Of a stretch of 64,000 bases of DNA, positions 2,933 through 17,910 are shown piece after piece. This DNA is from Chryseobacterium sp. 52. Its GTDB lineage: Bacteria > Bacteroidota > Bacteroidia > Flavobacteriales > Weeksellaceae. A model generated the notes under the pieces. It saw only the letters and a list, made by a program, of their open reading frames with translations. It searched no databases and had not been told where the DNA came from. A program made the translations under genes and the position numbers. The stretch's first letter is position 1, and each line of letters starts with the position of its first letter. The stretch spans positions 3,638,001 through 3,702,000 of the forward strand of contig NZ_PEEX01000001.1 of the NCBI RefSeq assembly GCF_002754245.1, read 5' to 3'.

Positions 2933-3171
2933 AATATTCCATATCTGCAGGCTTCTGCCCTTCTGCATATTTCAGATCCTTTCTAAGTTTCGTCTTTCCT
3001 GAAAACTCATTTATCATTTCACTTCAGTTTTGATTCCTCAAGCCTTCTGCTGTAATTTTCTTTTTTTAATTCTATTCATCTTACTCTTTTTCAGATAGAT
3101 TAGAACTAATTACTCACAATATTCAGAATTAATCCAAGAAATAAAGTCTATCTACAATTATTTTTATAAAT

Positions 3172-3215
3172 TGCAACAATATTGCATTAGCAACAATATT
3201 GCGATTTTAAATTTA
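3172..3215 (+). promoter_or_regulatory. Two tandem Fur-type operators over the lanthipeptide operon promoter
   Basis: Two copies of a 15-base palindrome, TGCAACAATATTGCA at 3172-3186 and AGCAACAATATTGCG at 3189-3203, share the 13-mer GCAACAATATTGC and start 17 bases apart. Just downstream, TAAATTTA at 3208-3215 matches the Bacteroidota -7 element TANNTTTG at 7 of 8 positions. A TTG inside the first box (3182-3184) could serve as the -33 element. A protein bound here would block RNA polymerase. The same palindrome occurs at every other promoter of this locus. The upstream stretch 2933-3171 shows nothing recognisable. Confidence 0.7.
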
Positions 3216-3249
3216 TGCCTAACCCAAAAATCAACCGGGATGAGTCAAG

Positions 3250-5469
3250 ATGGAGAATAAAATACTAAGAAAAATCAGCCATTATTTTAAAGGAAAACAT
3301 TACCCGTTTTTCCGGCAGCTGGATACAATGGACTGCGGACCTACATGTCTTAAAATGCTTACTGATTATTATGGAAAAGAACTGTCGTTAAATCATTTAC
3401 GGGAACTCTGTGATGTACGCAGCCAGGGAACTTCAGTATCAGGAATCACCCATGCAGCAGAACAACTGGGTCTCAAAACATTAGCAGCAGAATTAAGTCA
3501 GGAAATACTGTTTCAAAAAGCACCGTTACCCTGTATACTTCATTGGGATCATAATCATTTTGTCGTTCTGTGGCAGCTTACTGAAAAGCATGCCTACATC
3601 GGAAACCCCGCATTGGGAAAGAATATGCGTTATACCATCAACGATTTTCTGGAGCACTGGAATCCATCCGGACGGGAAAATAAAGGCATTGCCATCTTTA
3701 TGGAGCGTACAGAAACCTTTGATCAGACAGACAATCATCCGGATCCATCTGTCAGCTTATTTTCCCTGCTGAAAAAAATAGATGACCGCAGGAGCATTTA
3801 TTATGTCATCGCAGCTCTTTTAGCCGCTACCCTTCTGACACTGGCCATTCCTTTATTAACACAGGCTGTGGTAGATCAGGCTATTTCAAAAAAGGATATA
3901 GGCATATTGTCTCTGATCTGTGCAGGGCAACTTGTCTTATTTACAAGCAGAATCCTTACAGATTTCTTTCGCAGCAGAATCCTTTTTAAAGTAGGCGTCA
4001 ACATCAGTATAAAACTTATTTACGAATTTGTAGACAAACTGATGCAGCTTAAACTTTCTTTTTTTGAATACAGAAGCAGTGGCGACAATCTGCAGAGAAT
4101 CTATGATAATCAGCGTATTGAGGAATTTCTTACCAAAAACTGTGTAAGTGCAGGACTTTCAGTGATCATCCTTATGGTGAATGGTGGATTATTGTGCTAT
4201 TATAACTGGAAACTATTCATTTTATTTCTGGCTGCCAGTACCGTAAGCGTACTTTGGACCCATCTTTTTGAGGAGAAAAGAAGACGCTTGGATCAGCGGA
4301 CTTTCAGCCTTCTTGCAAACGCTCAACGCCATCAGATAGAAACATTTGAAGCGATGACCGAAATAAGACTGACCGGGGCGGAAGAGGAAAAAAATAAGTT
4401 GTGGAAAACCATGCAGGAAGAAACCTACCGGGTGAAAATGGAAAATCTGAAACTGGATCAGCGGATACAGGGAGTAGCCCTTTTCATCAATGAAATAACA
4501 GGTGTATTAACAACCTTTTTAACCGCTTCCCTGGTGATCAATGGAAGCCTGACCCTTGGAGCCATGCTTGCCATTACCTATATGTATGGTTCATTAAATG
4601 GTACAGTTAACCAACTTTCAGAATTTATCCGCTCCATGCAGACCGCCAAATTCAGCTTGCAAAGGATTTCCGAAGTAGAATATGAAGAAACCGAAGACGC
4701 CTACTCTACCTTGAATTTACCCAAAGGAAATTCCGGTTCAATTGAACTGATGGATGTCAGTTTCCGGTATGGAAAATTATCATCTGACGTACTGCACAAT
4801 GTATCGCTCACTATTCCTGCAGGAAAAGTAACCGCTATTGTCGGGATGAGTGGAAGCGGAAAAACAACCCTTTTAAAACTCCTGCTAAAATTTTTCAATG
4901 CATCACAAGGAGTCATTACATTCTGCGGACAGGATCTGAAAATGATCAATGCAAAAAGTTTGCGAAAACAATGTGGAGCCGTTATGCAGGATTCTTTTCT
5001 GTTCACAGACACCATAGCCGGAAATATATGGTTGGGAAGCACCGAAAAAGACCTGAATCGGGTAAAAAAAGCCTGTAAAATGGTCAATATGCATGATTTT
5101 ATTGAATGCCTTCCCCTTTCTTACGAAACCCAGATCGGAAGTGAAGGAACCGGGCTTAGCGAGGGACAAAAACAACGCTTGTTTATTGCACGCCTGATCT
5201 ATCGCCAGCCTGATTATATATTTCTGGATGAAGCCACCAATGCTCTCGATGCCAACAATGAAAGGCTGATCGTTGAAAATCTGAATCAATTTTTCAAAGG
5301 CAGAACAGTCGTTATCGTTGCTCACAGGCTGAGTACGGTAGTCCATGCTGACAATATCATAGTTCTGGATAAAGGACAGATTGTTGAGCAGGGTACGCAT
5401 GAAACTTTAACAAAATCCAGAGGAGCTTATTACCATTTAGTTAAAAATCAACTTGAACTCGGAAAATAA
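3250..5469 (+). CDS. Peptidase-containing ABC transporter (PCAT, LanT-like)
   Basis: 739 residues in the usual PCAT order. A C39 peptidase domain (1-140) has oxyanion Gln23, catalytic Cys29 in DCGPTC and His103 in HNHFVV. A six-helix ABC transmembrane domain spans about 180-470. The nucleotide-binding domain has Walker A GMSGSGKTT near 530, signature LSEGQKQR near 637 and Walker B IFLDEATNALD near 655. PCATs remove double-glycine leaders and export the mature peptide across the inner membrane; the precursor at 11049-11243 has such a leader. An oddity is that the usual catalytic Asp (motif DP) is Asn119 in GNPALGK. It is first gene of a four-gene operon behind two operators. Partner outer-membrane and adaptor proteins are not encoded here. 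Confidence 0.92.
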   Translation: MENKILRKISHYFKGKHYPFFRQLDTMDCGPTCLKMLTDYYGKELSLNHLRELCDVRSQGTSVSGITHAAEQLGLKTLAAELSQEILFQKAPLPCILHWDHNHFVVLWQLTEKHAYIGNPALGKNMRYTINDFLEHWNPSGRENKGIAIFMERTETFDQTDNHPDPSVSLFSLLKKIDDRRSIYYVIAALLAATLLTLAIPLLTQAVVDQAISKKDIGILSLICAGQLVLFTSRILTDFFRSRILFKVGVNISIKLIYEFVDKLMQLKLSFFEYRSSGDNLQRIYDNQRIEEFLTKNCVSAGLSVIILMVNGGLLCYYNWKLFILFLAASTVSVLWTHLFEEKRRRLDQRTFSLLANAQRHQIETFEAMTEIRLTGAEEEKNKLWKTMQEETYRVKMENLKLDQRIQGVALFINEITGVLTTFLTASLVINGSLTLGAMLAITYMYGSLNGTVNQLSEFIRSMQTAKFSLQRISEVEYEETEDAYSTLNLPKGNSGSIELMDVSFRYGKLSSDVLHNVSLTIPAGKVTAIVGMSGSGKTTLLKLLLKFFNASQGVITFCGQDLKMINAKSLRKQCGAVMQDSFLFTDTIAGNIWLGSTEKDLNRVKKACKMVNMHDFIECLPLSYETQIGSEGTGLSEGQKQRLFIARLIYRQPDYIFLDEATNALDANNERLIVENLNQFFKGRTVVIVAHRLSTVVHADNIIVLDKGQIVEQGTHETLTKSRGAYYHLVKNQLELGK

Positions 5470-5478
5470 ATTTTGAAA

Positions 5479-8127
5479 ATGAGCCTGACTATTTTACCCT
5501 ACCTCTTTACAAGGTTTGCCGGATTGCCCGTAGAAAGCCTGAATGCATTGAGAATCCCTGAAATCGAAGATCAATGGCATCAATGGCAAATGTCTGTTGA
5601 GCATGATAAGAACTGTAATGATGATTTATGTACTGAGCTTTACACTCTCATCCAGCAATCTTCTGATGACCAGGAACGAAAGCTGCTGCTCAATCTGAAA
5701 CGCTCAGTGTACAACAGACGGCCAAATACAGAGACTTTGTTACAAAAAATTCCTGCAGAAACCTTTCATATCTTCAAAAAACACTGGGAAGAATGGCTTA
5801 AAGCACAGGCAAGCTATGAAGAATTCAAAGAATCCTGGGACCAGAATTTTCATCATCATTTGTCATCACACAGACAAAATATACAACAGCTAACGGAAGA
5901 ATATGCTTTCAGAAACGGGCTTCTTCTTTCCAGTAAAGATCTGTATGAACAACTGGAAAGTTTCAGCAATAAAGCAGTGACAACACTCAAAAAAGACACC
6001 GAGCGTATTGAATTCAGTGTGCTGCGCTATCTAACCCGTATGGCTTATAAAACATCTCCATTCAGCACCTTTACCTATTTAGGCCTTACGGAAATGGTTC
6101 CTGATGATCAGCCTCTTTTTCCACCGGTTCCGGAAATCACCGGCTGTAAAATAAGACTGAATAATAAACTGCTGAAAAGAATAAAGAAACTCATGGAACA
6201 GCATCCTGATCTTCAGGGTTTATTGTTTGTAAATACCAACAGCAGTATGACAAAAAGTGACAACCGCTTTAAGTTTCTGATGAATTGCTCCAATATCGAA
6301 GTCTTTCAGGAAATTCAGGCAACTCCTGTCAATCAGTATATCAAAGAATTAATTGATGGATCGGAGGAAAGTATTTCACTATCTTCATTGATTCAGTTGC
6401 TTTCCAGTTCTATTGAAGCAGACATTTCAGAATTAAAACATTATGTTTTAAAGCTTATTGACTCCGGATTTTTAGAACTGGCATTGGAATGCTCGGAAAT
6501 TAATCCGGATTGGGATATTCATCTTTTAACCTTTCTATCTCAACATAAGGACAGCAATAAGGCAGTCGGACAGCTGTATGAACTGGTTTCAAATCTTCAT
6601 CTGGCTAAAAGTGAATTTTCCACGGCAGATCTATCCAAACGGGAAGTGCTCCTGAAAGATATTTTAAAGCGGTTTGAAAGTACCATTTCAGATCTTGAAA
6701 ATCAAGCCGGTATCCTTAAACTCGCAAAAGACGAAATACAAAAAATTCTGGACCAAATTCTTGAAAGATACAGGAATGGACAAGGTTTTGAAAAACTCCC
6801 CTATCTACCGGTGGACTACCGGCAGGAAGGATTTATTTATGAGGATGCGTATACTGATCAAATCAATACCGTGAATGAAAGTACGGTTTATGAATTAGGA
6901 CAGTTGTTATCTGATCTCACCAACCGTCTGGCTGCTTTTGATATCCGGGGAAAGGAGAAAAGCAGTGTTAAAGATTTTTTTATCTCCAGATACCATAAAG
7001 ACCAATCTGTTTCTCTGGTGAGCTTTTATCATGAGTACTATCGTCACAGAAATAGATCTGAGGCAGACGCCGGGCAAAAACAACTAAATTCCTGGTCCGA
7101 TATCTTTTGGAAAGAACTCAGGCAGGAAAGTGCGTCCGACGAAATAAAAATTCAAAAGAAAAATTTGGCTCACCTTCCTTTATCCAGTAACTCCACTCCT
7201 ACCGGTTCAGCTTTCCTGCAGTTTTTTGATCAGCAGTCAAAAACAGGGACAAAAGCCGTTGTAAACGGACTGATGCAGGGAATGGGTAAAATGAGCGGCA
7301 GATTTCTTCATTTATTTGATCATGAAATTTCCGATGTACACAGAAAGTATAACGAACGTTTATTTCCGCACCATCTGCTTATTGAGCTGAATGATGATTC
7401 CAGTTTTAATGCTAATATCCACCCTCCTTTACTTGATCATGAGGTGAAAATGCCTGCCTCCAATACGCAAATGAAAAAGTCTCAGCAGATTCCTTTGGAC
7501 CGTATATCCGTTGGGTATCATTCAGATGATGACAGGCTTTGTCTGATGGACACTGTCTTACACAAAGAAATCTATGCATTCGACCTTTGCCTTGAAACTA
7601 TTACCAACAGGTCTAATCTTTATCAGCTGATGTCTCTGTTCAATCCTTGCACCTATGTGAGTTACTTTCCGATTATTCAAGCTATTGATCACAATTATTC
7701 AAAGCAGTTTAAAGACGAGGTAATTCAGATCTTCCCGCGAATTGTTTACGAAGACAGGCTTGTTCTCCGGCGCAAAGGGTGGCTGATACCTGTGAGTATT
7801 ATTCCTACACAAGACAAGGATGAAAGTAGCAGTATTTATTTTTTAAGGTTTAATCAGTGGCTTTTAAAGAATACGTTACCCTCTTCCGTATTCCTTTATC
7901 TGCAGTCTTCCTATATTCCTGAAGATCCATCATCCGAAACAACTGCCGGAACAAGAGATGATTATAAACCTCAGTTTATAGGTTTTGAGCAACCTTTACT
8001 TTTTAATCTATTCACCAAACTATTGAACAGAGCGGGATCTTATATCTACTTAGAAGAAGCTCTGCCTTCTGTGAACCATGTTCAGAATAGAGTCACTGAA
8101 CATCTGATCCAATGGTATAATTTTTAG
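5479..8127 (+). CDS. Lanthipeptide dehydratase, glutamylation part (split LanB)
   Basis: About 882 residues. The segment SVLRYLTRMAYKTSPFSTF at about residues 180-200 is the hallmark LanB N-domain motif. These enzymes use glutamyl-tRNA to glutamylate Ser/Thr of the precursor before elimination to Dha/Dhb. The C-terminal elimination (SpaB_C) domain of full-length LanB, around 1000 residues, is missing and is supplied by the next gene. The start was set to ATG 5479 (MSLTILPYLFTRF) because the alternative upstream TTG at 5473 adds only two residues and TTG starts are rare in this group. It begins 9 bases after the PCAT stop and ends 4 bases before the next gene, so it is tightly operonic. The family is clear. 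Confidence 0.88.
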   Translation: MSLTILPYLFTRFAGLPVESLNALRIPEIEDQWHQWQMSVEHDKNCNDDLCTELYTLIQQSSDDQERKLLLNLKRSVYNRRPNTETLLQKIPAETFHIFKKHWEEWLKAQASYEEFKESWDQNFHHHLSSHRQNIQQLTEEYAFRNGLLLSSKDLYEQLESFSNKAVTTLKKDTERIEFSVLRYLTRMAYKTSPFSTFTYLGLTEMVPDDQPLFPPVPEITGCKIRLNNKLLKRIKKLMEQHPDLQGLLFVNTNSSMTKSDNRFKFLMNCSNIEVFQEIQATPVNQYIKELIDGSEESISLSSLIQLLSSSIEADISELKHYVLKLIDSGFLELALECSEINPDWDIHLLTFLSQHKDSNKAVGQLYELVSNLHLAKSEFSTADLSKREVLLKDILKRFESTISDLENQAGILKLAKDEIQKILDQILERYRNGQGFEKLPYLPVDYRQEGFIYEDAYTDQINTVNESTVYELGQLLSDLTNRLAAFDIRGKEKSSVKDFFISRYHKDQSVSLVSFYHEYYRHRNRSEADAGQKQLNSWSDIFWKELRQESASDEIKIQKKNLAHLPLSSNSTPTGSAFLQFFDQQSKTGTKAVVNGLMQGMGKMSGRFLHLFDHEISDVHRKYNERLFPHHLLIELNDDSSFNANIHPPLLDHEVKMPASNTQMKKSQQIPLDRISVGYHSDDDRLCLMDTVLHKEIYAFDLCLETITNRSNLYQLMSLFNPCTYVSYFPIIQAIDHNYSKQFKDEVIQIFPRIVYEDRLVLRRKGWLIPVSIIPTQDKDESSSIYFLRFNQWLLKNTLPSSVFLYLQSSYIPEDPSSETTAGTRDDYKPQFIGFEQPLLFNLFTKLLNRAGSYIYLEEALPSVNHVQNRVTEHLIQWYNF

Positions 8128-8131
8128 AATA

Positions 8132-9004
8132 ATGGAAAAACTCTGGAATACTTATTATATATATCATCCTGACGACGCAGACCGTCTTTTGAAAGAAGTT
8201 GTAGATCCGGCTGTTCAGAATTTACAGGAAGTACTGACTGAAGAGGTGAAGTTTTTCTTTATCCGGTATTTTGAAAACGGGTATCACATCAGGTTGCGAC
8301 TGCTTTTGTCAGCTGAAAAAGCGAAGGTATTTCTTTTGATTTTAAAAGATCATATCTCAGTTTATGAACAACGCAACGGGGTCTTTCTAGAACTGAAAGA
8401 AGCTGAATATATCCCGGAAACAGAAAGATATGGAAATGAAAATACAATCGCACACGCGGAAAATCAGTTTTGTGCATCATCCCAGTTTGTTCTGCACCAT
8501 TTGACACAAAACAGTCCTTTAACCGCCTCTGAGAGATATCTGCTGGCTATGAAAACGCATTTTGCTTTTTTTAAGGGAATGAGGCTGTCTCAAGAATATA
8601 GCCGAGAGTTATGTGAAAAATTTGTTCAAAGCTGGCTTCCATTACCAATTTCTGACAATCCGGATGAGCACGAGCAAAACAGCAAGGATTTATGGTCTGT
8701 TTTTCAACGACAGTTTGAAAGTTATCAACCTTTACTATATGAAAATATCGTTATGTTCTGGAATTCATTAGATGCCACAACAGATCTTTTTACAAAACAG
8801 TTTCTGAAAGAAAACCATAAGATTTGGCAAGAATATGTTCAGTCTAAGCTGCCTTTAAAAGCTTTAGAGGAAGCTCTTTTAAGCTTTATTCATATGACCA
8901 ATAACAGATGGGGAATCATCAATGCTGAAGAATCCTATCTCCTTTTTTTAATTATGCGAACCCTCCCTCTAATAAAGGACTATGATAACAAATCAAGAAC
9001 GTAA
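8132..9004 (+). CDS. Glutamate-elimination protein (SpaB_C / thiopeptide-type)
   Basis: 290 residues. The opening WNTYYIYHPDDADRLL and the segments FFIRYFENGYHIRLRLLL and QFCASSQFVLHHLT fit the SpaB C-terminal domain family, often called thiopeptide-type bacteriocin biosynthesis protein. This domain binds the glutamylated precursor and eliminates glutamate, leaving dehydroalanine or dehydrobutyrine. In nisin-type LanB it is fused; here it is a separate protein, as in thiopeptide and some Bacteroidota lanthipeptide systems. Its stop lies 23 bases inside the next gene, indicating translational coupling. Confidence 0.85.
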   Translation: MEKLWNTYYIYHPDDADRLLKEVVDPAVQNLQEVLTEEVKFFFIRYFENGYHIRLRLLLSAEKAKVFLLILKDHISVYEQRNGVFLELKEAEYIPETERYGNENTIAHAENQFCASSQFVLHHLTQNSPLTASERYLLAMKTHFAFFKGMRLSQEYSRELCEKFVQSWLPLPISDNPDEHEQNSKDLWSVFQRQFESYQPLLYENIVMFWNSLDATTDLFTKQFLKENHKIWQEYVQSKLPLKALEEALLSFIHMTNNRWGIINAEESYLLFLIMRTLPLIKDYDNKSRT

Positions 9005-10892
9005 TGACCTGCAATCCGGACTGGATGAAATAAGTGAGTTGCTGCTCTCTAAAATTAAACAGGATAAAAACGGTTTCTATTGGGAAACCATTTCCAGAGA
9101 TCATGTGACAGGATTATTTTCTTTTACATTCAATCCTTCTTTATGGAATGGAACCGGAGGTATTGCCTGGTTTTTCCTTATATTATATGAAATTACCGGT
9201 AAAAAGAATGATCTGGAAACTGCTGAAAAAGCTTTTTCAAAAATCTATACTCATTCAATAGATTATCCATTAAACACCAGTCTTTATGATGGAATAAGTG
9301 GTGTTATTTACTTAGGCTCAGAGCTGTTCAGGGTGACTGGAAAAGATCTGCATCTTCAGCAGGTATTGAACTTGTATAAAATCTACAGGCAGAAAATATT
9401 GGCAGAACAGACAGAGGATATGCTGATTGGTATTTCCGGTATTTTAATTTCTATCTGTACGCTGTATCATTTTACAAAGAATGAAAAATTACTTGATGAT
9501 ACCGTAGTATTGGTTACGACTCTTTTAGAAAAGTCTCTGATAGCAGAATCCGGAATTAAATGGGGCAACAATCAGCTTTCAATGGATTCTTTATGTGGTT
9601 TTTCGCATGGGAATTCGGGAATAGCTTTCACTTTGCTGCAATTGGGAACATACTTTAATCATGAGGAGTTCATCTGGCTGGCGGAACAGGCATTCCTTTA
9701 TGAGGATTTCTACTATAATCCTTCTGACAATAACTGGATGGATTTAAGATGGGAAGAGTCCAAGAATCATCTTCCCGGTTTATTCGATTGGAATAAAAGT
9801 ACATTTCTTCAGGAAGATTTTAACCTTAATGCATGGGCACATGGAGCGTGTGGGATTGGAAATGCAAGACTTTCAGCATTCATGATAACGGGTAATCCGG
9901 TCTATGAAAAGGATTGTAGAAAGGTATTTGAAAGATGTAAGAATGATATTCTGACAAGGTCTAAACAGAACCATATCCTGTTCAGCGGCTATGGCGGGCT
10001 CTCTGATTTTCTGTTGCAGTATCATGAAATATTCGATTATAAAGAAGCATTGGATCTTGCCAAAGAAATTGTTCAGGAAGGTTTAAAAAAAAGCAGGACA
10101 CATGGTCATTCCGAATGGGGAATTCAAAGCAGTGAAGACCTGGGACTGATGACAGGTACTGCAGGTATCGGGCTTTCTATCCTTGCTATAATACAGGGGA
10201 AAACATTCAATTCTATTCTTCATCCTGAACTTCCTGTTAACGAAGACGGGAATAAGGCGGTTCTGAAAGATTTTAACGTTAAAAAAATATTTTTTGAACG
10301 CTATTATCCTAAAACCCTTGATATTTTAAAAAATTTCACCGTGGTTAAGGATGCCATTTATAATGCTAAAACTATAGAAGAGTTTGGAAATACTTTATCG
10401 GACCTCATCTGCAATCTACCAGAAAAAGACAGTCTTTATGTTTTGGACATTTATCAGATTGAAACTTTCCAGCTTGATATCCGGAGAAAGAATAAAGGCA
10501 CTTTATGTTTTCAAACACGGCTGATGCTATTAAAAAAGGAACTTACGGAATTCCAGGAATATGATGAAACTGAATTCAGAAAAAAACGGTTTGTCCGTAA
10601 TCCTTTTATTGAGGTGTATGAATCCCGGTGGAACTGGAAGGAAAATAATAACCAGGATTCTTTAGCCGGAAAGTATAACAATGTTTTTTACAGTACGGAT
10701 CAGGAGATTTATCATCTTTTGCAGGAGCCTTTTTCTGCAACGATACTCCAACTGCTGGAAAAACCGCTAAGTATTGAGGAATTAGCCGCGTATTTTCTTT
10801 ACCTGGTAGTAGAAAAAGAGATGATGGAAGAAAAGTTATCGGAACAAATTGTGGAGCTGTTGAAAAGCTTTTTCATAAGAATTGTGGATTAA
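8982..10892 (+). CDS. LanC-like protein lacking canonical zinc ligands, with a C-terminal extension
   Basis: 636 residues overlapping the previous gene by 23 bases. Residues about 40-410 show LanC (alpha/alpha toroid) repeats: GTGGIAWFFL, GISGVIYLGS, LCGFSHGNSGIAF, WAHGACGIGNARL, GYGGLSDFLL and LMTGTAGIGLS. In NisC zinc is held by one Cys of a WCYG motif and a Cys-His pair in CHG. Here these positions read Ala286 and Met390-Thr391; only the active-site His (His209) remains. Cys205 and Cys290 lie nearby and could form another site. About 220 residues follow the barrel; the last 70 or so (EIYHLLQEPFSATILQLLEK onward) look like a small helical, possibly winged-helix, module. A role in cyclisation is inferred from context. 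Confidence 0.8.
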   Translation: MITNQERNDLQSGLDEISELLLSKIKQDKNGFYWETISRDHVTGLFSFTFNPSLWNGTGGIAWFFLILYEITGKKNDLETAEKAFSKIYTHSIDYPLNTSLYDGISGVIYLGSELFRVTGKDLHLQQVLNLYKIYRQKILAEQTEDMLIGISGILISICTLYHFTKNEKLLDDTVVLVTTLLEKSLIAESGIKWGNNQLSMDSLCGFSHGNSGIAFTLLQLGTYFNHEEFIWLAEQAFLYEDFYYNPSDNNWMDLRWEESKNHLPGLFDWNKSTFLQEDFNLNAWAHGACGIGNARLSAFMITGNPVYEKDCRKVFERCKNDILTRSKQNHILFSGYGGLSDFLLQYHEIFDYKEALDLAKEIVQEGLKKSRTHGHSEWGIQSSEDLGLMTGTAGIGLSILAIIQGKTFNSILHPELPVNEDGNKAVLKDFNVKKIFFERYYPKTLDILKNFTVVKDAIYNAKTIEEFGNTLSDLICNLPEKDSLYVLDIYQIETFQLDIRRKNKGTLCFQTRLMLLKKELTEFQEYDETEFRKKRFVRNPFIEVYESRWNWKENNNQDSLAGKYNNVFYSTDQEIYHLLQEPFSATILQLLEKPLSIEELAAYFLYLVVEKEMMEEKLSEQIVELLKSFFIRIVD

Positions 10893-10972
10893 TTTAAACA
10901 CGAATATTTTACACGAATGACACGGATATCTCTGTTGTGATAGTGATATTTGTGAACGTATTTGTGTTTAAA
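10893..10972. repeat. Dispersed intergenic repeat R1, copy 1
   Basis: An 80-base element bounded by inverted repeats TTTAAACAC (10893-10901) and GTGTTTAAA (10964-10972). Inside is CACGAATGACACGGATAT, then GATAGTGATATTTGTG. Two related copies lie at 17911-18005 and 18197-18286. It has no coding capacity. The structure suggests a small mobile or palindromic intergenic element. Confidence 0.65.
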
Positions 10973-10995
10973 AAATTCATGTTTGTCGTGCAGAA

Positions 10996-11028
10996 TAAAA
11001 AAGGGCTGCTTTACGGATAAAGCAGCCC
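10996..11028 (-). terminator. Rho-independent terminator of the lanthipeptide precursor gene
   Basis: Stem GGGCTGCTTTA (11003-11013) with TAAAGCAGCCC (11018-11028) and a four-base loop. On the minus strand it is followed by a run of six T (10997-11002). It lies 20 bases after the precursor stop codon. Confidence 0.88.
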
Positions 11029-11048
11029 CCTAAGCTCTCGTTCTTTAA

Positions 11049-11243
11049 TTAACACTGAACAGTTCCACAAACGTGAAGTCTGTCCTGAGTTTTTATAGTA
11101 TGAGTCGGGTGATCATGATCTCCTGCTGGAGAAAGTCCTAAACCACCTTGTAATTTTTTGGACAGATCTTTGTCCAAAGCTGTTACGAAACTTTCGATCT
11201 TAAGATCGTCGATGTTAAGTTTCATTTTTTTGTTGTTTTCCAT
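11049..11243 (-). CDS. Class I lanthipeptide precursor (LanA) with double-glycine leader
   Basis: 64 residues. The leader is MENNKKMKLNIDDLKIESF plus a helical part ending KKLQGG (residues 29-34); LKIESFVTAL followed by GG is typical of Bacteroidota class I precursors and suits C39 cleavage. The 30-residue core runs from LGLSPAGDHDHPTHTIK to a C-terminal CGTVQC. Core Cys25 and Cys30 can pair with dehydrated Ser4, Thr13, Thr15, Thr18 or Thr27; Thr27-x-x-Cys30 makes an obvious C-terminal ring. Four His (9, 11, 14, 23) and three Asp (8, 10, 20) make the core look metal-binding. It has its own operator and terminator. Product activity is unknown. Confidence 0.9.
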   Translation of the reverse strand: MENNKKMKLNIDDLKIESFVTALDKDLSKKLQGGLGLSPAGDHDHPTHTIKTQDRLHVCGTVQC

Positions 11244-11318
11244 AATAAAACATTTTTTTAATTTGGCCTACTCTTTAAGGGTTTCGGCTTTCCCTTGTTG
11301 TAAAGATACTTATTTTAT

Positions 11319-11333
11319 TGCAACAAAGTTGCA
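11319..11333 (-). promoter_or_regulatory. Perfect Fur-type operator upstream of the precursor gene
   Basis: TGCAACAAAGTTGCA is a perfect 6-3-6 palindrome and defines the consensus for the seven boxes of the locus. On the minus strand TATCTTTA (11301-11308) is a candidate -7 element just downstream, so the box covers the -33 region. The untranslated leader would be about 50 bases. The box starts only 9 bases beyond the end of the TonB receptor gene, so read-through from that gene is also possible. Confidence 0.72.
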
Positions 11334-11341
11334 TTTAAATG

Positions 11342-13531
11342 TTAAAATTTAATCCCAAACTGCAATTTAAAATTGAAGGGGTTGCTTTCTTTATACATCC
11401 ATGCTTCTCCTACTACCGCAGTCCAGTCTGCATTGTATCTCGCCTGAACATTTCCGTCGGTGATATATCGTTTATTCAGCAGATTGTCAAATATTCCCCG
11501 AACGAACCATTTTTTATACTGATACATAATACTGGCATCCAGTTTTATAAAATCAGGAATACGGACTCCGGGTACATCGGTTTCCCGCACCAAAGCAGCA
11601 GTCTCGCCCAAAGCCAGCGAAAGCCCGCTTAGTTTTCCTTTTTGGAATTTATACATCACCCAGGTATTGATCTGATGTCTGGGAACACTTGAAAATCTCT
11701 TTCCCACAAGCTCCGATACGTAAGGATCTTTTGAATACACAGAATTAATATATGAATAGTTGGCCGTCAGAGTAATGCTGGGGTAAATAGAACCAATCAC
11801 ATCGATCTCGATTCCTTTATTTCTCACCTGATTAAGCTGAGTCGTTACTCCTGTAGCAGGGTTTTGAGAGAAGGAATTATTCCTGATAATTCTGTACGCG
11901 CTTACTGAAGTGGACAGCAGGCCATCAAACCAATCTTTCTTTACACCGAATTCTGTATTGTAGCTTTCCAAAGGTTTCCACTCTTTTCCCTGGGGATCGG
12001 TTCCGGGCATAGGATCGAAGCTCTGATCATATGAAAAGAAAGCCGCAAAATTCTTTTGAATCATATAAGTCACCCCAACCCTTGGATTGAATGCATGGTG
12101 TCTGTAGGTTTTATTATCTCCGTCTGGAGTATAAGGGCCTTTAAGATATCGCTCCCTTCTGTTTTTGCTGTACCGGAATCCGGCATCTACAAATAAACGG
12201 TTCCAGAATTTAAAATTATTATACACGTAACCTCCTACTGTTTGGTCTTTCGACATGGTATAGTCAATCTGATCATCTGTCTCAGGCTGTGTCAGCAGGT
12301 TCCGGTCAATCCCATAGTTCAGTAAATTCCGGTTAAAAACAAATTCATTCATCCCCTGAATATGTTCCGTATTGCTTTTACTGCTGTTAAAATCAAATCC
12401 GACAAGTAGTGTATGAACAATATTTGAAGTGATGTTATAACTTCCGTTTATAAATAATTGGGTGTTATAGGTAAGATATTTCTGTTTATTTCTAAAACTG
12501 GAACGAAGTGCATTTCCTTCATCATCAAACATAGGCGGATTGTAGCTGGCCGTACCTCCCAGAATACTCCACTGATCCAACGGTGTACTTTTAATAGAGG
12601 ATTGGGAAACAATTTTCCATTGATCATTAAACTTATGATGGAATACCAGTCTTCCGTAATGCTCATCAAGTTTGGAGGTCGGCAGGTTCGGATCACCCTG
12701 ATAATTTGCTTTCCACGGGTGTTTTTGAACCATCGTCTCCGTTTCATACTGGATAAAATTACTGGACTCCAGTGCCCTCCCCTGAATCATATTCCATTCG
12801 GCAAGAAAGAAGGTATTTTTACTGATATTATACTGAATGACCGGTGCCAGAACAAATTTCCTACGTTTTGCATAATCAGCGTAATATCCCTGAGATTCAT
12901 AGGCCGCATTGAACCGAAAAGAAAAACCTTTTTCTTTCAAAGCACTTCCCATATCCACGGCAGCCCGGTAGAACCCGAAACTTCCAGCAGCTACATTAAC
13001 CTCAGCAATCCTGTTCGCACGCGGAGCCTTCGTATTGATATTTAAAGAGCCTCCTCCTGTTCCCATTGAATTGATGAAACCTGCAGGTCCTTTGATTACA
13101 TCCACCTGTTCTATTAAGGCAACATCTTCCTGCGAAAGTCCCCCGGCAAAAGACGGCAATCCGTTTCTGAAAGTACTTACAGGACTGAAACCCCGTATTT
13201 GTGCATTATAGGTTCCCGCAAAAACATTTCCGGCTCCGGTAGCATCACCAATATAGATCCCGCTTACATTTCTAAGGGCATCCTGCACATCAAAAGCGCC
13301 CTGAAGATTAAGCAGGTTGCTTTTGATACTCACAATATTCTGAGGAATTTCCAACAGCTTATCATTTCGCTTCAGATTTCCGGAAAGACTGTCTGTTTTG
13401 ATCAGCCTCATTGCCGTTAATACAACTTCATCAATATTTTTTTCAGATAAGGAATCTTTCTTTTCCTGTGCACATACTAAAGAAAACGTCCCCAAAAGGG
13501 CAGCTGTCAACAGGACGTAATTTTTCTTCAT
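11342..13531 (-). CDS. TonB-dependent outer-membrane receptor (siderophore-receptor type)
   Basis: 729 residues. A signal peptide (MKKNYVLLTAALLG, cleaved after VCAQ) is followed by a TonB-box-like IDEVVLTA, a plug domain of about 130 residues (LRNVSGIYIGDAT, IRGFSPVSTFRNG, IEQVDVIKGPAGF) and a 22-strand-type barrel ending in an aromatic residue (FGIKF). The plug motifs are those of siderophore receptors of the FhuA/FpvA type. There is no carboxypeptidase-like N-terminal domain, so it is not a SusC transporter. It is last gene of a permease-permease-receptor operon, 11 bases after the preceding stop. Given the context it may import the lanthipeptide, alone or with a bound metal; other metallophores are possible. 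Confidence 0.88.
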   Translation of the reverse strand: MKKNYVLLTAALLGTFSLVCAQEKKDSLSEKNIDEVVLTAMRLIKTDSLSGNLKRNDKLLEIPQNIVSIKSNLLNLQGAFDVQDALRNVSGIYIGDATGAGNVFAGTYNAQIRGFSPVSTFRNGLPSFAGGLSQEDVALIEQVDVIKGPAGFINSMGTGGGSLNINTKAPRANRIAEVNVAAGSFGFYRAAVDMGSALKEKGFSFRFNAAYESQGYYADYAKRRKFVLAPVIQYNISKNTFFLAEWNMIQGRALESSNFIQYETETMVQKHPWKANYQGDPNLPTSKLDEHYGRLVFHHKFNDQWKIVSQSSIKSTPLDQWSILGGTASYNPPMFDDEGNALRSSFRNKQKYLTYNTQLFINGSYNITSNIVHTLLVGFDFNSSKSNTEHIQGMNEFVFNRNLLNYGIDRNLLTQPETDDQIDYTMSKDQTVGGYVYNNFKFWNRLFVDAGFRYSKNRRERYLKGPYTPDGDNKTYRHHAFNPRVGVTYMIQKNFAAFFSYDQSFDPMPGTDPQGKEWKPLESYNTEFGVKKDWFDGLLSTSVSAYRIIRNNSFSQNPATGVTTQLNQVRNKGIEIDVIGSIYPSITLTANYSYINSVYSKDPYVSELVGKRFSSVPRHQINTWVMYKFQKGKLSGLSLALGETAALVRETDVPGVRIPDFIKLDASIMYQYKKWFVRGIFDNLLNKRYITDGNVQARYNADWTAVVGEAWMYKESNPFNFKLQFGIKF

Positions 13532-13542
13532 TTCGTCTATAT

Positions 13543-14991
13543 TTATTGTTTAAATTTTCTGATCAGTACTAATCCTGCCGTGAAACAACCCCAACTTATC
13601 ACCCATAGAATCAATGTTCCATAGAAGAACTCTGATATTCTTACTTCATGGTGCTTAATTTTAAAGACGGGCAGTGTGGTAAGCTCTTCTGGTGATAATC
13701 CGGACACTATTCTTTTCCCATTTTTCATAGAAAAAACCCTGCTGTAGAAAAAGGTCTGCCATACATAGCGGAAATCCTGAACATCCTGTTTATAGCCCTG
13801 ATAATCTGTGCGGCTTGTTCTGGCTAAAAGAGTAAAAAGATGTTCTGTACTCTGAACAGGATTATATCTGATTAATCTATACGCCATTTGATTGGCTTTG
13901 TTATCTCCCTCCCATAGAGAATCAATAACTGCCTTCATACGGTTTTGTTTGATATAATAGTAACCAGCAAAGAAAGCATCATTCTGATTATCAATCGTAT
14001 CCGAAGGAGTATAGGCTGAAGTATATTTCGGAAAGTTTCTGTAAAAACTGTCTACAACTATTTTAGGCTTCATCGCCCAGACTTCATCACTGATCTGTCT
14101 GTCTTTTTCTTCGAGATCAAGAAGCTTAAGATCAGAAGGATATTTCAGCTGAGCCGTCTTATTAATAACCAGAGGCAGCAAAAACATCAGGAAAATCCAG
14201 CATGCTATGCAGGAGAATACGTTGAATACACTGTTTCTATCCAGGGAAATAATAACAAAACACAAGGATATCCAGAATACGCAATAGGAGAACAGTAAAA
14301 AAATCCATAGAAAAGCATCTTTAACGGAAGGAAAGCCTGATGGAGAAAGCTGCATGCCCAAAGCATTCACCGCTAAAGCTGCACCAAAAACCAATATAAA
14401 ACGGATCAGAATTTTTCCAAACAGTACATGCCTTAAAGTTCCCCCCTGAACAATCAGGAGATTACTGATTCCTGTTTCTTTTTCTGAGGAAATCACATTA
14501 TAAACCAAAACAATAATCAGGAGCGGAATTAAATAAAGATTGACATATAAAAGATCCAAACGTCCTTCAAAAAGAATGGAAGGATTGATCATTTCCCGGT
14601 CTACAGCCGCATAATCTGTATAATAATTTACCTTTTCTGTAACCGGAGTTATATCTTTTATCCCGGAAGCAAGACCCGTGAGCGGATATGGATAATCATA
14701 AGCCACACGTGGATATCTGTAATCTATTACATAAGGGTTTCCGGCATTTTCCGCCTGTTGTTTTTTATCAGCCCCAGCTGTATCTGTAAAAGCCTTCAAT
14801 GCATAATGGTAATCTTTGACAGATTCTTTCTTTGCTTCTTTAATGGCTTCCAATTTCTTGTGGGTCAATACATTCCCTGAATAAATGGCGTAACCTCCGA
14901 TCACGAAGAAAAAAAAGAAGAGAATCCATACAGCAGACTGCCGGGAAATGTGTTTCCATTCGTATAACAGCAACATCATCTTATCCTTCAT
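13543..14991 (-). CDS. ABC-2 type permease, DUF3526 family (second subunit)
   Basis: 482 residues. The N-terminal helix WILFFFFFVIGGYAIYSG is followed by a periplasmic domain of about 130 residues. Then come several membrane helices (LYLIPLLIIVLVYNVISSEKE, FSYCVFWISLCFVIISL, ACWIFLMFLLPLVI), a second long periplasmic segment and a last helix near the C-terminus. The SSEKETG motif after the second helix is the usual ABC-2 coupling region. It overlaps the upstream permease by 11 bases, so the two probably form a heterodimer driven by the ATPase at 16660-17361. It could move peptide or metal complex either way across the inner membrane, or give self-protection as LanEG do. Confidence 0.8.
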   Translation of the reverse strand: MKDKMMLLLYEWKHISRQSAVWILFFFFFVIGGYAIYSGNVLTHKKLEAIKEAKKESVKDYHYALKAFTDTAGADKKQQAENAGNPYVIDYRYPRVAYDYPYPLTGLASGIKDITPVTEKVNYYTDYAAVDREMINPSILFEGRLDLLYVNLYLIPLLIIVLVYNVISSEKETGISNLLIVQGGTLRHVLFGKILIRFILVFGAALAVNALGMQLSPSGFPSVKDAFLWIFLLFSYCVFWISLCFVIISLDRNSVFNVFSCIACWIFLMFLLPLVINKTAQLKYPSDLKLLDLEEKDRQISDEVWAMKPKIVVDSFYRNFPKYTSAYTPSDTIDNQNDAFFAGYYYIKQNRMKAVIDSLWEGDNKANQMAYRLIRYNPVQSTEHLFTLLARTSRTDYQGYKQDVQDFRYVWQTFFYSRVFSMKNGKRIVSGLSPEELTTLPVFKIKHHEVRISEFFYGTLILWVISWGCFTAGLVLIRKFKQ

Positions 14992-16414
14992 AGTTCACAA
15001 AATAATTTAGTTTAATAATCAATCCGAAGGATACAATCAATAGTATGATCCAAAAAAACAAGGACCAAACCGCCGTCATATGATACCTGATCACAGACCC
15101 GACAGAAGGATATTCATATTGAAAATCCGGAAGACTGCTGTAAAAATTCCTGTTGCTTATTTGATTTTTCTCAGAAATGGAAAGCTGTAATTCTCTTCTG
15201 TTCAGCCTGTCCATCATATCATTTCTGTAGCGTTCAGCTTTGTTGAAAAAATCAATGTGATGGTAGACATCCGTTCCGGAAAGCCCCATGGATAATTGAC
15301 GTACTGCAATAAACGGATTGATCATTCCCATGTTATCCATAAATTGTTGTTGCTGTTCAAATTTCTTTTCCACCTGTCCGGAATACAATGAGTTGACTTT
15401 ATTCTCATATGCCTCCGCCTGTATCAGGTCAAGAGCAAAACGGATTTTCTCCGGCAACTGGCTGATATCATTTACTTTAAATTCTCTTAGATGTTGTTTT
15501 AAATAGCTTTCAGATCGTACAGTATAAGATCCGTCATTATCAAGTCCTTTATCAAAGACTGTTTTGATGTTATGTTCAAATTCATGGTAAGAAGGAAGCG
15601 GATATTTACCGTCTGCTACTGAGCTGCTGAATTTTGGAATAAGCAGAATACAAAAAATCCATAGTGTAATATTCGTCATGAGCGAAGACCAGGACGAACG
15701 GCTGAGTGTAGAAATCAACAGCACCACTCCGGAAATAAGAAAGAAATAAACCGCATATGCGCCGAACCAACAAACCGCTCTTATCAAATGATTAACGGGT
15801 TCATTTTCAAAAATAAGACCAGCCATGATGACGGCAAACGGAGGAACCGTAAATAACAGAACTGCCAGATAAAGAGCCATGAATTTTCCGGAAACCAAAT
15901 GTCCAAATGCAGCACCCTGAACGGACAGAAGTTTTAAAAATCCTTTCTCTCGTTCGGATGAGATGCACGAAAATCCCAAACCAATAATAAATAATGGCAT
16001 CAGCCATTGAAAAAAAAATTCAGTATTAAGCTCCGGCCTCCTCATAAAGGCTTCTAAATCCGGCAGTCTGTTAGAATGAATTTGTGGACGCTTATGCGCC
16101 TCAACTCTATAATAGTTTTCTGAATAAATACTTGTCCCCGATTCCAGAAGTGAAAGATAATTTACCGGTTTAAAAAGGAAAGTTCCCCAGTGTGCAGCAC
16201 TGTGATTGCTCCGGTCCTGATCTTTCCATTCTCTGTCTATACCTTCTTTAGCTTCCTTATTTTTAATAGAAGTTGTATTGAGCTGTGCGTAATTGCTTCC
16301 CCAAACGCCCAGTAAAATCAGAATATAAAACGTTACAAATATTTTCAGTCCGTTTTCCTGAAATCCTCTAAACTGATGTTTAGCTACTAAAAATGTTATT
16401 TTAAAATCAGTCAT
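14981..16414 (-). CDS. ABC-2 type permease, DUF3526 family (first subunit)
   Basis: 477 residues with the same layout as its downstream partner: one N-terminal helix (FVTFYILILLGVWGSNYA), a periplasmic domain, a membrane block starting FFFQWLMPLFIIGLGFSCIS with the coupling motif SSEREKG, and a C-terminal helix pair (WSLFFWIILLIVSFGLII). The partners are homologous but clearly divergent, consistent with an obligate heterodimer. It is first gene of the operon running into the TonB receptor. Two operators lie upstream at 16519-16571, so this operon is controlled separately from the ATPase gene by the same signal. Confidence 0.8.
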   Translation of the reverse strand: MTDFKITFLVAKHQFRGFQENGLKIFVTFYILILLGVWGSNYAQLNTTSIKNKEAKEGIDREWKDQDRSNHSAAHWGTFLFKPVNYLSLLESGTSIYSENYYRVEAHKRPQIHSNRLPDLEAFMRRPELNTEFFFQWLMPLFIIGLGFSCISSEREKGFLKLLSVQGAAFGHLVSGKFMALYLAVLLFTVPPFAVIMAGLIFENEPVNHLIRAVCWFGAYAVYFFLISGVVLLISTLSRSSWSSLMTNITLWIFCILLIPKFSSSVADGKYPLPSYHEFEHNIKTVFDKGLDNDGSYTVRSESYLKQHLREFKVNDISQLPEKIRFALDLIQAEAYENKVNSLYSGQVEKKFEQQQQFMDNMGMINPFIAVRQLSMGLSGTDVYHHIDFFNKAERYRNDMMDRLNRRELQLSISEKNQISNRNFYSSLPDFQYEYPSVGSVIRYHMTAVWSLFFWIILLIVSFGLIIKLNYFVNYEG

Positions 16415-16518
16415 TAATTCATATTTGCCCGTTGAATAATCATCTTATATAAACTTCTGAAACAATTTCCTACGCCATACAAAATGAGGATCGATTAGTT
16501 TTCTTAAGAAACTGCTAT

Positions 16519-16571
16519 TGCAACACTGTAGCAAAAGTAATAATTAATTTCAATAACGCACTATTGTTGCA
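16519..16571 (-). promoter_or_regulatory. Operator pair and promoter of the permease-receptor operon
   Basis: TGCAACACTGTAGCA at 16519-16533 matches the locus palindrome with one arm mismatch. A weaker copy, CGCACTATTGTTGCA, lies at 16557-16571 with an intact GTTGCA half. On the minus strand TACTTTTG (16532-16539) is an exact TANNTTTG -7 element overlapping the first box, which therefore covers the transcription start. The leader would be about 110 bases long. The rest of the gap between the ATPase gene and the permease gene shows nothing else. Confidence 0.68.
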
Positions 16572-16659
16572 ATAAATTATTGATAAAATTTTTTTTCTGA
16601 TTTTTAGGAATAATACTGTCGTGAATCCATAAGAATGATTTCTTTACAATAAGTATGAA

Positions 16660-17361
16660 TCAGGTCTGCATATAATCCAGATATATTTTTTCCAGCTCAC
16701 TGGCAGATACCAGGGATGTATTCATTTCTTTCACCAATACTCCGTTTTTAAGAATTCCAATACGGCTGCAGGTTTCTCTGACTCTGAAAATATCATGAGA
16801 AGCCATTAGTATTGCAGCTCCTTCTTCAGCCAGCTTTTTAAGCAAAGCAGAAAGTTCATTACTGGCTAAAGGATCCAGACCACTTGCCGGTTCATCCAGT
16901 AAATACACTTTGGCTTTTTTTGCATAAGCAATAGCAATACCTACTTTCTGCCTCATTCCTTTAGAATAAGCTTTGGTTTTCTTATTATGCGAATCCCTTT
17001 GGAGTCCACATTCATACAGAAGATCAGAAAGTTCTTCTGTCGTGTAATTTTTGCCCGCCAGTTTACAGAAATAATAAAGGTTTTCCACCCCGGTTAAATA
17101 GGGATAGAGATTGACATTCTCAGGGATATACCCAATTATTTCTCTAGCTTCTTTTGCATCTGTACTGGTATTGATATTATTGAGGAGAGTAAGCCCGGAA
17201 TCTGGTTTTAAGAAACCCAGCAGTATATTCAGAGTGGTGGATTTTCCGGCTCCATTCGGTCCAAGTAAACCATAGATTTCGCCTTGTGCAATGGATAAGG
17301 AAAGTCCCTTCACCGCCTCTTTTCCATTATATGATTTGCTTGTGTTTTCAATCTTGATCAT
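16660..17361 (-). CDS. ABC transporter ATPase (CcmA/LanF-like)
   Basis: 233 residues, single nucleotide-binding domain: Walker A GPNGAGKST near residue 36, signature YSKGMRQK near 133 and Walker B VYLLDEPASGLD near 155, with a switch His in ASHD. This size and signature are typical of ATPases serving ABC-2 permeases such as NosF, drug exporters and LanF of lantibiotic immunity. The two permeases it most likely energises start 246 bases downstream on the same strand. It is transcribed divergently from the Fur-family gene, with two operators in the shared region. Confidence 0.85.
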   Translation of the reverse strand: MIKIENTSKSYNGKEAVKGLSLSIAQGEIYGLLGPNGAGKSTTLNILLGFLKPDSGLTLLNNINTSTDAKEAREIIGYIPENVNLYPYLTGVENLYYFCKLAGKNYTTEELSDLLYECGLQRDSHNKKTKAYSKGMRQKVGIAIAYAKKAKVYLLDEPASGLDPLASNELSALLKKLAEEGAAILMASHDIFRVRETCSRIGILKNGVLVKEMNTSLVSASELEKIYLDYMQT

Positions 17362-17406
17362 AAGCTTATTGAGTTTGATTTAAGTGTATTATCATTTTGA
17401 TGTTAA

Positions 17407-17459
17407 TGCAATAATGTTTCAAAAATAAAGATTATATTTGTTACTGCAACAATATGGCA
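17407..17459. promoter_or_regulatory. Divergent promoter region with two Fur-type operators
   Basis: Boxes TGCAATAATGTTTCA (17407-17421) and TGCAACAATATGGCA (17445-17459) match the locus palindrome. Rightwards, TATATTTG at 17433-17440 is an exact -7 element for the regulator gene, so the second box lies on its start site. Leftwards, the minus-strand TATTTTTG (17420-17427) is an exact -7 element for the ATPase gene, with a TTG inside the second box exactly 19 bases upstream as -33. Both boxes thus overlap both promoters, implying autoregulation and co-regulation. Confidence 0.72.
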
Positions 17460-17488
17460 TTAATTATATTGAAATTTTTCCAGAAATC

Positions 17489-17869
17489 ATGAAACAGTCT
17501 AGAAATACAATAGCAAGAAAAGAAATAACAAGGCTTATCCACGACTCCGGAGTCGCTTTGTCCCATGCGGAATTGCAGGTTCTATTGGATGGACTCTGCG
17601 ACCGGGTAACGACATACAGAGTACTTGAAAGATTAATGGATGAAGGCATCATCCATAAAGTAGTTGATATTGATGGTACTATAAAGTATGCAGAATGTCA
17701 TACCTGTACAACGGAAATCCATCATCACGACCATCTGCATTTCAGCTGCGAACAGTGTAAGACGGTCACTTGTGTAGAAGATGTTGAGCCAAAGATTAAA
17801 TTACCAGTTAGCTATAAGGTTCATAAAATCAATCTGACTGTATCCGGGATCTGCCCGAACTGTCAGTAA
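17489..17869 (+). CDS. Fur-family metal-responsive repressor (Zur-like)
   Basis: 126 residues from ATG 17489. A longer reading from TTG 17438 would begin inside the promoter and operator, so it is rejected. The N-terminal winged helix includes RVTTYRVLERLMDEGIIHKV. The C-terminal domain has the Fur-family metal motif HHHDHLHFSCEQC and a closing CPNC, giving the CxxC pairs of the structural zinc site. It is shorter than most Fur proteins (about 140-150). Whether it senses zinc, iron or another metal cannot be told from sequence; Zur-like proteins are often this compact and Cys-rich. Divergent from the ATPase gene and preceded by two operators, it is the obvious candidate regulator of the whole lanthipeptide locus. 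Confidence 0.85.
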   Translation: MKQSRNTIARKEITRLIHDSGVALSHAELQVLLDGLCDRVTTYRVLERLMDEGIIHKVVDIDGTIKYAECHTCTTEIHHHDHLHFSCEQCKTVTCVEDVEPKIKLPVSYKVHKINLTVSGICPNCQ

Positions 17870-17910
17870 TGATCTGTATTCTTCCTTATTTTAGTTGAAA
17901 TTCTTTTGTG

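Follow-up and report, generated by a model that had tools for sequence, protein, structure and literature searches.

A 64-kb window of the Chryseobacterium sp. 52 genome (contig NZ_PEEX01000001.1; the window is the whole stretch of DNA that was analysed, 64,000 nucleotides) carries at positions 3170–17870 a class I lanthipeptide locus joined to a TonB receptor/ATP-binding cassette (ABC) module and a Fur-family regulator gene. Judged from sequence, the locus is probably a unit of the Zur regulon that serves the synthesis, export and recapture of a lanthipeptide zincophore. We give slightly better than even chances to the fuller proposal, in which a thioether-ringed ribosomal zincophore under Zur control is matured by a class I cyclase that dispenses with zinc and is recovered by its own TonB/ABC system, the whole arrangement being ancient and present in at least two orders of Bacteroidia. 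The parts all belong to known families; their combination, like the zinc-free class I cyclase and the role proposed here, appears to be undescribed in the open-licence PubMed Central literature, where titles and abstract openings, among the matches listed, showed no link of lanthipeptides to Zur, to zinc uptake or to a TonB receptor for the product.

Ten genes are grouped in the locus and, judged from spacing and strand, form five transcription units: PCAT-LanB-LanB-LanC, the precursor, permease 1-permease 2-receptor, the ATPase and the regulator. Pfam and NCBIfam profiles confirmed every gene named in the preliminary description. The first unit, on the plus strand, encodes a peptidase-containing ABC transporter (PCAT; 3250–5469) with a C39 peptidase (PF03412, 111.2 bits) and an ABC exporter (PF00664, PF00005), which is predicted to cleave after GG and export the peptide. 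It is followed by the N part of a split LanB dehydratase, the glutamylation half (5473–8127; PF04738, 125.5 bits), by the C part, the elimination half (8132–9004; PF14028, 128.9 bits; TIGR03891), and by a LanC-like cyclase with a C-terminal extension of no matched family (8982–10892; PF05147, 147.5 bits). On the minus strand lie a 64-residue precursor whose leader ends in LQGG (11049–11243; pinensin leader NF038180, 44.3 bits, cut-off 24), a siderophore-type TonB-dependent receptor (11342–13531; TIGR01783, 228.6 bits against a cut-off of 223.5; PF00593/PF07715), ABC-2/DUF3526 permease 2 (13543–14991; PF12679, 48.1 bits; PF12040, 24.2 and 28.3 bits in two scans, cut-off 25), ABC-2/DUF3526 permease 1 (14981–16414; PF12040, 71.5 bits, cut-off 25) and an ABC-2 type ATPase (16660–17361; PF00005, 108.9 bits). 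The regulator, a proposed Zur of 126 aa, is again on the plus strand (17489–17869, from the preferred ATG at 17489 to the stop at 17869; PF01475, 24.5 bits against a cut-off of 23.1). All reading frames are open, and decay of the cluster in the window was rejected.

Together, both LanB parts, the LanC-type cyclase and the Ser/Thr/Cys-containing precursor make up a class I lanthipeptide set, and the leader, which scores above its cut-off, places the precursor in the pinensin family. The TonB receptor, ABC-2 ATPase and two ABC-2 permeases, preceded by one type of operator, form a module like ZnuK/ZnuGHI. The ATPase matched the lantibiotic-protection family TIGR03740 at 165.9 bits, below the cut-off of 309.75, and was not classed as LanFEG. 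Receptor relatives labelled as pseudopaline receptors cluster with FoxA and were not used as evidence for zinc; a structure model of the receptor built from 10 close sequences had a mean pLDDT of 25.8, and nothing was inferred from it.

The preliminary description had reported one palindrome at all five promoters, and this was borne out. Seven sites of the form TGCAAC-N3-GTTGCA, score-12 sites included, cover the five promoter regions and are conserved in ortholog promoters. They begin at 3171 and 3188 (PCAT), 11318 (precursor), 16518 and 16556 (permease-receptor operon) and 17406 and 17444, the last two lying between the ATPase and regulator genes and being common to both promoters. We propose these sites as Zur boxes: the adjacent pair TTGCAACAATATTGCAT and TAGCAACAATATTGCGA (3171–3204) lies 79 and 62 bp upstream of the PCAT start, TTGCAACAAAGTTGCAT (11318–11334) lies 91 bp upstream of the precursor start, the first of the pair at 16518–16572 overlaps a TAnnTTTG (-7-like) element, and the pair at 17406–17460 was recognised by consensus scoring and in orthologs. 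When scored against the consensus TTGCAACANTGTTGCAA (maximum 16, strong sites at 13 or more), the 64-kb window contained five places at or above the threshold, all in intergenic stretches of the locus, whereas 30 dinucleotide shuffles of the window gave a mean of 0.23 such places and a maximum of 1. In the 5.3-Mb genome the only places with 0–2 mismatches were three sites of the locus. These counts are partly circular because the consensus was derived from the same locus, and the palindrome was therefore tested elsewhere, in orthologs and at the ZigA operon considered below. A reversed-pattern control (31 against 8 places) was not relied on, as the reversed pattern contains CpG. Further 0-mismatch core boxes at genome positions 2917819 and 5169887 fall within coding sequence and were therefore disregarded. 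Base counts over the sites describe the consensus and are no test of it, the sites having been selected with that consensus.

Among the 13 sets of orthologs fetched from the genus, the best upstream score was at least 13 for 13/13 precursors, 13/13 permease operons, 11/11 regulators and 12/13 ATPases; PCAT promoters reached it in nine of 12, the remaining three scoring 12. For loci of a second family, described below, the corresponding figures were 18/18 for the precursor, 12/18 for permease 1, 6/17 for PCAT, 2/3 for the regulator and 2/4 for the ATPase. The promoter counts are not independent, since regulator and ATPase share an intergenic stretch, as do PCAT and permease 1 in the second family. 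None of 74 stretches upstream of operon-internal genes (LanB-N, LanC and receptor) scored 13 or more. In one genome (G033; L264) the biosynthetic operon is inverted and lies beyond the regulator and its neighbour dgt, and two score-13 palindromes are still found just upstream of PCAT. On the strength of the shuffle control and the ortholog promoters we rejected a chance palindrome, and co-regulation of the units, as far as promoter sequences can indicate it, is well supported. TGCAAC-N3-GTTGCA is accordingly offered as a candidate Zur box for Bacteroidia.

Comparison within the genus likewise gives good support to the peptide and uptake genes being one physical unit. The named loci nearest to that of the window are all from Chryseobacterium (nine of nine), and carriers of the locus include C. 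oleae DSM 25575 (L056), C. vrystaatense LMG 22846 (L051) and C. sp. JM1 (L048). Orthologs of permease 1 (71–86% identity), LanB-N (at least 65%) and the precursor were found in an identical set of 14 of 173 genus genomes. The unit also appears to be lost as one: in G032 (L176) the first half of PCAT is fused to residues 1–31 of permease 1, everything between them is gone, and the ATPase and regulator are retained. A second-family relic (G935, L261) has a leader-only precursor. In the stretches read from G017 and G096 only the regulator is left between the same flanking genes. Lesser damage was seen in a truncated LanC (G122, 428 aa) and in permease 1 genes with one in-frame stop (G171 and G122). 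Pinensin leaders were also found in a fifteenth genus genome, G007, but in an unrelated cluster (L179, G007:C49:30000-49900): its four precursors are acidic and Cys-rich, its LanC is of the ordinary zinc type, and the 20 kb read gave no match to the uptake genes. A search with NF038180 of 395 genomes of the order, a set that holds part of the genus, gave only two positives, both Chryseobacterium.

The preliminary description had also raised the possibility that the receptor/ABC block occurs mostly without lanthipeptide genes in related genomes. This does not hold for the close permease orthologs (at least 71% identical), which are confined to the same 14 of 173 genomes; it does hold for the wider module. 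Distant permease relatives (about 25–32%) occur in 68 further genus genomes, and a TonB receptor lies beside 15 of the 16 such places fetched (L032–L047). No palindrome of 13 or more was present within their 4.4-kb stretches, and these paralog sets were rejected as members of the same regulon. Twelve plasmid records carry a permease relative, and the two inspected have a receptor, an ATPase and two DUF3526 permeases without lanthipeptide genes. To judge from these sequences, the receptor-ABC kind is general rather than lanthipeptide-specific, and it is the lanthipeptide-bearing branch that is special. Chryseobacterium sp. 52 itself has a second set of TonB receptor, two DUF3526 permeases and ATPase without lanthipeptide genes (L072, G000:C1:3550875-3556872); no core box with at most one mismatch was found in the 12 kb read there.

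The preliminary description's call for conserved synteny is answered both by the 14 genus genomes and by a second family in another order. A draw of 395 genomes across the class gave seven with pinensin leaders (Chryseobacterium sp. 52 and six others, one of the six below the cut-off). One of these, G857, belongs to another order of the same class, and its permeases, PCAT, LanB, LanC and precursor are arranged alike with the same palindromes, the TonB receptor lying further on. In the family of G857 the leader is present in 20 of 341 genomes, and 19 of these 20 neighbourhoods were fetched (G1214 was left out). Palindrome, permease 1 and precursor occur together in 18 of the 19, including the relic G935, which has a leader-only precursor and is without core, LanB, LanC and receptor; the nineteenth, G1046, has an ordinary pinensin-type precursor and neither a palindrome nor a permease match. 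The fullest agreement is seen in G1055, where the gene order regulator-ATPase-permease-permease-receptor-precursor-LanC-LanB-LanB-PCAT is that of the window. Unlike the window locus, 18 other pinensin-leader stretches, 17 from the class draw (L206–L220, L222 and L223) and that of G007, gave no permease, receptor or regulator match.

The regulator is most likely a Zur and the metal zinc, with repression that would respond to zinc. Of the preliminary description's metal regulation, the Fur-family gene and the common palindromes stand, and the metal can be narrowed, on comparative grounds, to zinc. The palindrome pair recurs elsewhere in the genome, upstream of an operon for a MerC-like protein and a COG0523 GTPase that matches the NCBIfam zinc metallochaperone ZigA (NF038288) over all 390 positions, with 547 bits against a cut-off of 600. 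A match to this ZigA-like GTPase was found in 76 of the 173 genus genomes. Thirty of the 76 loci were fetched, that of Chryseobacterium sp. 52 included, and the upstream palindrome scored at least 13 in 29 and 12 in the thirtieth, compared with 0.6% of shuffled upstream stretches at 13 or more; the operator is thus common to another zinc-starvation gene, as would be expected of a Zur. In G115 and G122 (L084, L096) a regulator 51–52% identical to that of the window lies divergently beside the ZigA-like operon, and in G113 and G122 the lanthipeptide locus has palindromes but no regulator, their regulator (52–53% related) adjoining the ZigA-like operon instead. Since the regulator is found either in the lanthipeptide locus or beside the ZigA operon, one regulator type fits both promoter sets. 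Residues H56 and C70 of the window regulator align with a His and a Cys of Zur 4mtd, further ligands being aligned less surely, and were compared with H77 and C88, which we take to be a regulatory site of E. coli Zur. No Zur box is shown in the available portion of a paper on zinc in Riemerella (PMC11960050).

Other boxed places in the Chryseobacterium sp. 52 genome were read in passing. The stretch with the ZigA-like operon (L076, G000:C1:3208967-3212004) contains the MerC-like gene, the GTPase and an alkaline-phosphatase-like gene, and its divergent gene encodes a 164-residue protein of no assigned family, not a regulator. At L073 (G000:C1:296809-300149) a second Fur-family protein, 34% identical, is encoded between an apparent CDF-type transporter and a P-type metal ATPase, and a perfect core box, GCAATACTATTGC, lies immediately upstream of the P-type ATPase gene. 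Another perfect core box, GCAACAATATTGC (L074, G000:C1:4522999), lies about 62 bp upstream of an NAD/FAD-oxidoreductase-like gene (4522032–4522937), which is near an ArsR-like gene and adjoins a metallo-beta-lactamase-like gene (all named by eye).

The LanC-like cyclase has lost the residues that define a zinc-dependent LanC. Aligned with LicM2 (6st5), the window protein shows Ala in place of the first Cys and Phe-Ser in place of the Cys-His pair, and this Ala/Phe/Ser pattern is found in all 14 genus LanCs read, including the window protein, the truncated G122 protein and that of G033. Second-family LanCs carry Ala at the first Cys position and Ser or Thr at the His position in 17/17; the second Cys is kept in 6/17, and all three ligands are lost in 11/17. 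The LanC of G1106 is in two pieces. All 31 LanCs read from palindrome-bearing loci are therefore without at least two of the three zinc ligands, whereas the ordinary LanCs of loci without uptake genes keep all three in five of five cases (L179, L210, L220, L245 and L002; a sixth, L216, is cut off and not counted). The zinc-less proteins, 30 of the 31 being included in the tree, group in a single clade that is fully supported, and the ligand loss is therefore one evolutionary change and not many. While the loss itself is established, metal-free activity is suggested by analogy with class III cyclases. To place a zinc-free form of an enzyme under Zur follows a logic familiar from Zur regulons. 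About 220 C-terminal residues (10218–10892) have no Pfam or NCBIfam match; an AlphaFold2 model of the protein is mostly helical, as expected, with a mean pLDDT of 64.4 and an extension largely of low confidence, and a leader-binding role for the extension is a guess. The available part of a paper on a metal-independent class III synthetase states that every other cyclase domain keeps the zinc ligands under strict conservation (PMC10604976). A natural class I LanC without them contradicts that statement and would open metal-free thioether formation to a direct test in an enzyme that stands alone.

The precursor is conserved in the 14 genomes. Its predicted core after LQGG, LGLSPAGDHDHPTHTIKTQDRLHVCGTVQC, has 30 residues, among them 4 His, 3 Asp and 2 Cys as potential ligands and 5 Ser/Thr, and a predicted unmodified mass of 3235.56 Da, less 18.01 per dehydration. 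Histidine makes up 4/30 of this core and 9/816 of residues in other cores (15 of 30 loci parsed, L183 excluded; 12/844 with L183, which is one locus of the window kind). Of the second-family cores, typically LGNVSEPTHTEQTDDHHTPPVRCTTVIC, 17 were readable: PTHT is present in all of them, T[DQ]D follows it in 15, and the C-x-T-V-x-C end of the window core is common to 16, G1055 ending differently. Pooled ratios of non-synonymous to synonymous differences (pN/pS; 12–14 genus sequences per gene) were lowest for the regulator (0.033), followed by the precursor at 0.079 (leader 0.066, core 0.095), the receptor at 0.094, PCAT at 0.110 and the ATPase at 0.125; the permeases gave 0.18–0.19, and LanB and LanC 0.24–0.31. 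The precursor value is rough, the gene being short and its pS 0.30 against about 0.5–0.6 elsewhere; precursor and receptor nevertheless come next to the regulator in conservation. Diversification would instead be expected of a weapon or of its immunity gene.

A product of such a locus may already have been detected. In the accessible sections of PMC10459008, the C. herbae genome is reported to contain an antiSMASH region (7.1) for a class I lanthipeptide, 17% similar to pinensins; a pinensin-family lanthipeptide was identified in the culture supernatant by shotgun proteomics, and the strain had a weak effect on a fungus. The C. herbae locus (L050/L167) is orthologous to that of the window, and because the genome has a single pinensin leader we infer that the supernatant peptide is its product. 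If the present proposal is right, this antiSMASH pinensin-like cluster (PMC10459008) would need re-reading as a zinc nutrition locus. A second class I lanthipeptide-like locus was seen in Chryseobacterium sp. 52 (L075, G000:C1:2649899-2656446), with a 74-residue GG-type open reading frame, a LanC that retains its zinc ligands (L002) and a protein of 1036 residues that, judged by eye, is LanB-like.

We propose the following mechanism. In zinc-replete cells the Zur-like protein would occupy the palindromes and repress all five units. Under zinc shortage the precursor, split LanB, LanC and PCAT would be expressed; from the protein families it is predicted that core Thr residues are dehydrated, that up to two Cys form thioether rings, and that PCAT removes the leader at LQGG and exports the core of 30 residues. 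The His/Asp/Cys-rich core would bind extracellular zinc, and the TonB receptor would carry the zinc-peptide complex across the outer membrane. By analogy with Caulobacter ZnuK/ZnuGHI, the ATPase and two DUF3526 permeases may drive a later step, in which the peptide is either imported or released and returned. With no zinc ligands in its cyclase, synthesis would not depend on the scarce metal.

Several observations weigh against this zincophore proposal. The regulator's best NCBIfam match is Zur (NF008646), with 36.4 bits against a cut-off of 167, and the protein is barely above the Pfam FUR cut-off; among solved structures a Fur comes closest (9ire, 31.4 bits), followed by Zur 4mtd (27.9 bits), and the 51% identical regulator of L084 has Fur as its best NCBIfam match and Zur third. 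The zinc link through the ZigA-like GTPase is visible in only six of the 14 genomes that carry the locus, the other eight having no match to that protein. In the second family a close regulator (62–66% identical) is present in G1055 and G935 only, and 3 of the 18 loci showed the receptor (G857, G1073 and G1055), 14 of the stretches ending within or near the permeases before the receptor's place and the relic G935 having none. The receptor's nearest solved relatives are siderophore receptors, which carry iron siderophores. Most ABC-2 permeases are exporters, which makes a role in uptake uncertain, and a LanFEG-like immunity pump could have this same architecture. The association of LanC ligand loss with the palindromes may reflect a single event. 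If the C. herbae culture was zinc-replete, strict repression is doubtful.

The chief rival holds that the peptide is an antimicrobial or antifungal weapon released at zinc scarcity, with the ATPase and permeases as LanFEG-like self-protection and the receptor in another role. It draws on a leader of the family named after the antifungal pinensins (PMC7268733, in the part available), on the sub-threshold match of the ATPase to TIGR03740 and on the fungal inhibition by C. herbae (PMC10459008). That inhibition is, however, weak and not tied to the peptide in the accessible text, and the permeases are of a TonB-receptor-linked kind that is also found without lanthipeptides. Unlike typical arms-race peptides, the core is nearly invariant in the genus, with PTHT and mostly the CxTVxC end kept in another order. 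We consider a weapon unlikely and favour a metallophore over it. Release without re-import, in which a Zur-controlled peptide acts as a zinc sequestrant, surface buffer or starvation signal and the receptor/ABC module imports another zinc complex, would suit the metal-ligand-rich core and the occurrence of the receptor/ABC kind alone elsewhere; but close permease orthologs were not found without precursor and LanB among the 173 genus genomes (14/14/14), and the permease-precursor pairing is maintained in the second family, which makes this explanation rather improbable.

The same circuit might instead serve copper, manganese or iron, the Fur-family protein not being a Zur. Sub-threshold family scores of the regulator to Fur and PerR, its best solved relative and the siderophore-receptor relatives of the receptor point that way, but the palindrome common to the operon of the ZigA-like zinc GTPase, the loss of zinc ligands from the cyclase and the Caulobacter precedent all speak for zinc, and we regard another metal as improbable. 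Very improbable, finally, is that two independent zinc-regulon modules became neighbours by chance in one ancestor and were co-inherited. The 14 genomes may share one ancestor, and the zinc-less LanCs have a single origin; against this, both halves were lost jointly in G032, with its joined PCAT and permease 1 remnants, both survived in G033, where the biosynthetic operon has moved and been inverted, and the pairing persists in another order.

Among known systems, the peptide genes are closest to the pinensin-family class I lanthipeptides of Bacteroidota (NF038180), which, in the available parts of PMC7268733 and PMC10459008, have the same leader, a split LanB, a LanC related to LanM cyclases and a PCAT. 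The window locus differs from ordinary pinensin loci in its palindromes, TonB receptor/ABC module, His-rich PTHT core and cyclase without zinc ligands. Another class I lanthipeptide of the genus, ChmA of Chryseobacterium OV715, is reported in the accessible text to have seven dehydrations and three rings (PMC9993889), compared with 5 Ser/Thr and 2 Cys in the window core; these modifications exceed the capacity of the core, and ChmA is therefore another peptide. Class III LanKC enzymes such as ThurKC, as described in the excerpt available (PMC10604976), likewise lack zinc ligands, with Ser, Phe and Asp where the window protein has Ala, Phe and Ser; the window cyclase is a stand-alone class I LanC, unlike the class III LanKC domain. 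The uptake half resembles Caulobacter crescentus znuK and znuGHI, which encode a TonB receptor, an ABC-2 ATPase and two ABC-2 permeases and are Zur-repressed (PMC4176598). Compared by description only, the two are alike in having a TonB receptor adjoining an ABC-2 ATPase and two permeases, under Zur in Caulobacter and a proposed Zur here, and differ in that the available part of that description (PMC4176598) mentions no peptide biosynthesis genes. Of 14 control genomes, only that of Caulobacter vibrioides gave DUF3526 matches, and the proteins concerned are probably ZnuH and ZnuI.

Opine-type zincophores are enzyme-made small molecules without a ribosomal precursor. As the part of PMC5719457 at hand describes for pseudopaline, they are secreted zinc metallophores recovered via dedicated membrane transporters, as we propose for the lanthipeptide. 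In Anabaena, ZepA is a secreted, Zur-controlled polypeptide for zinc uptake (PMC10957091, in the text available), again as proposed here, and is a folded protein where the window would encode a modified small peptide. If the proposal is true, lanthipeptides would have a nutritional, metal-acquisition role, and a ribosomal peptide would join the zincophores.

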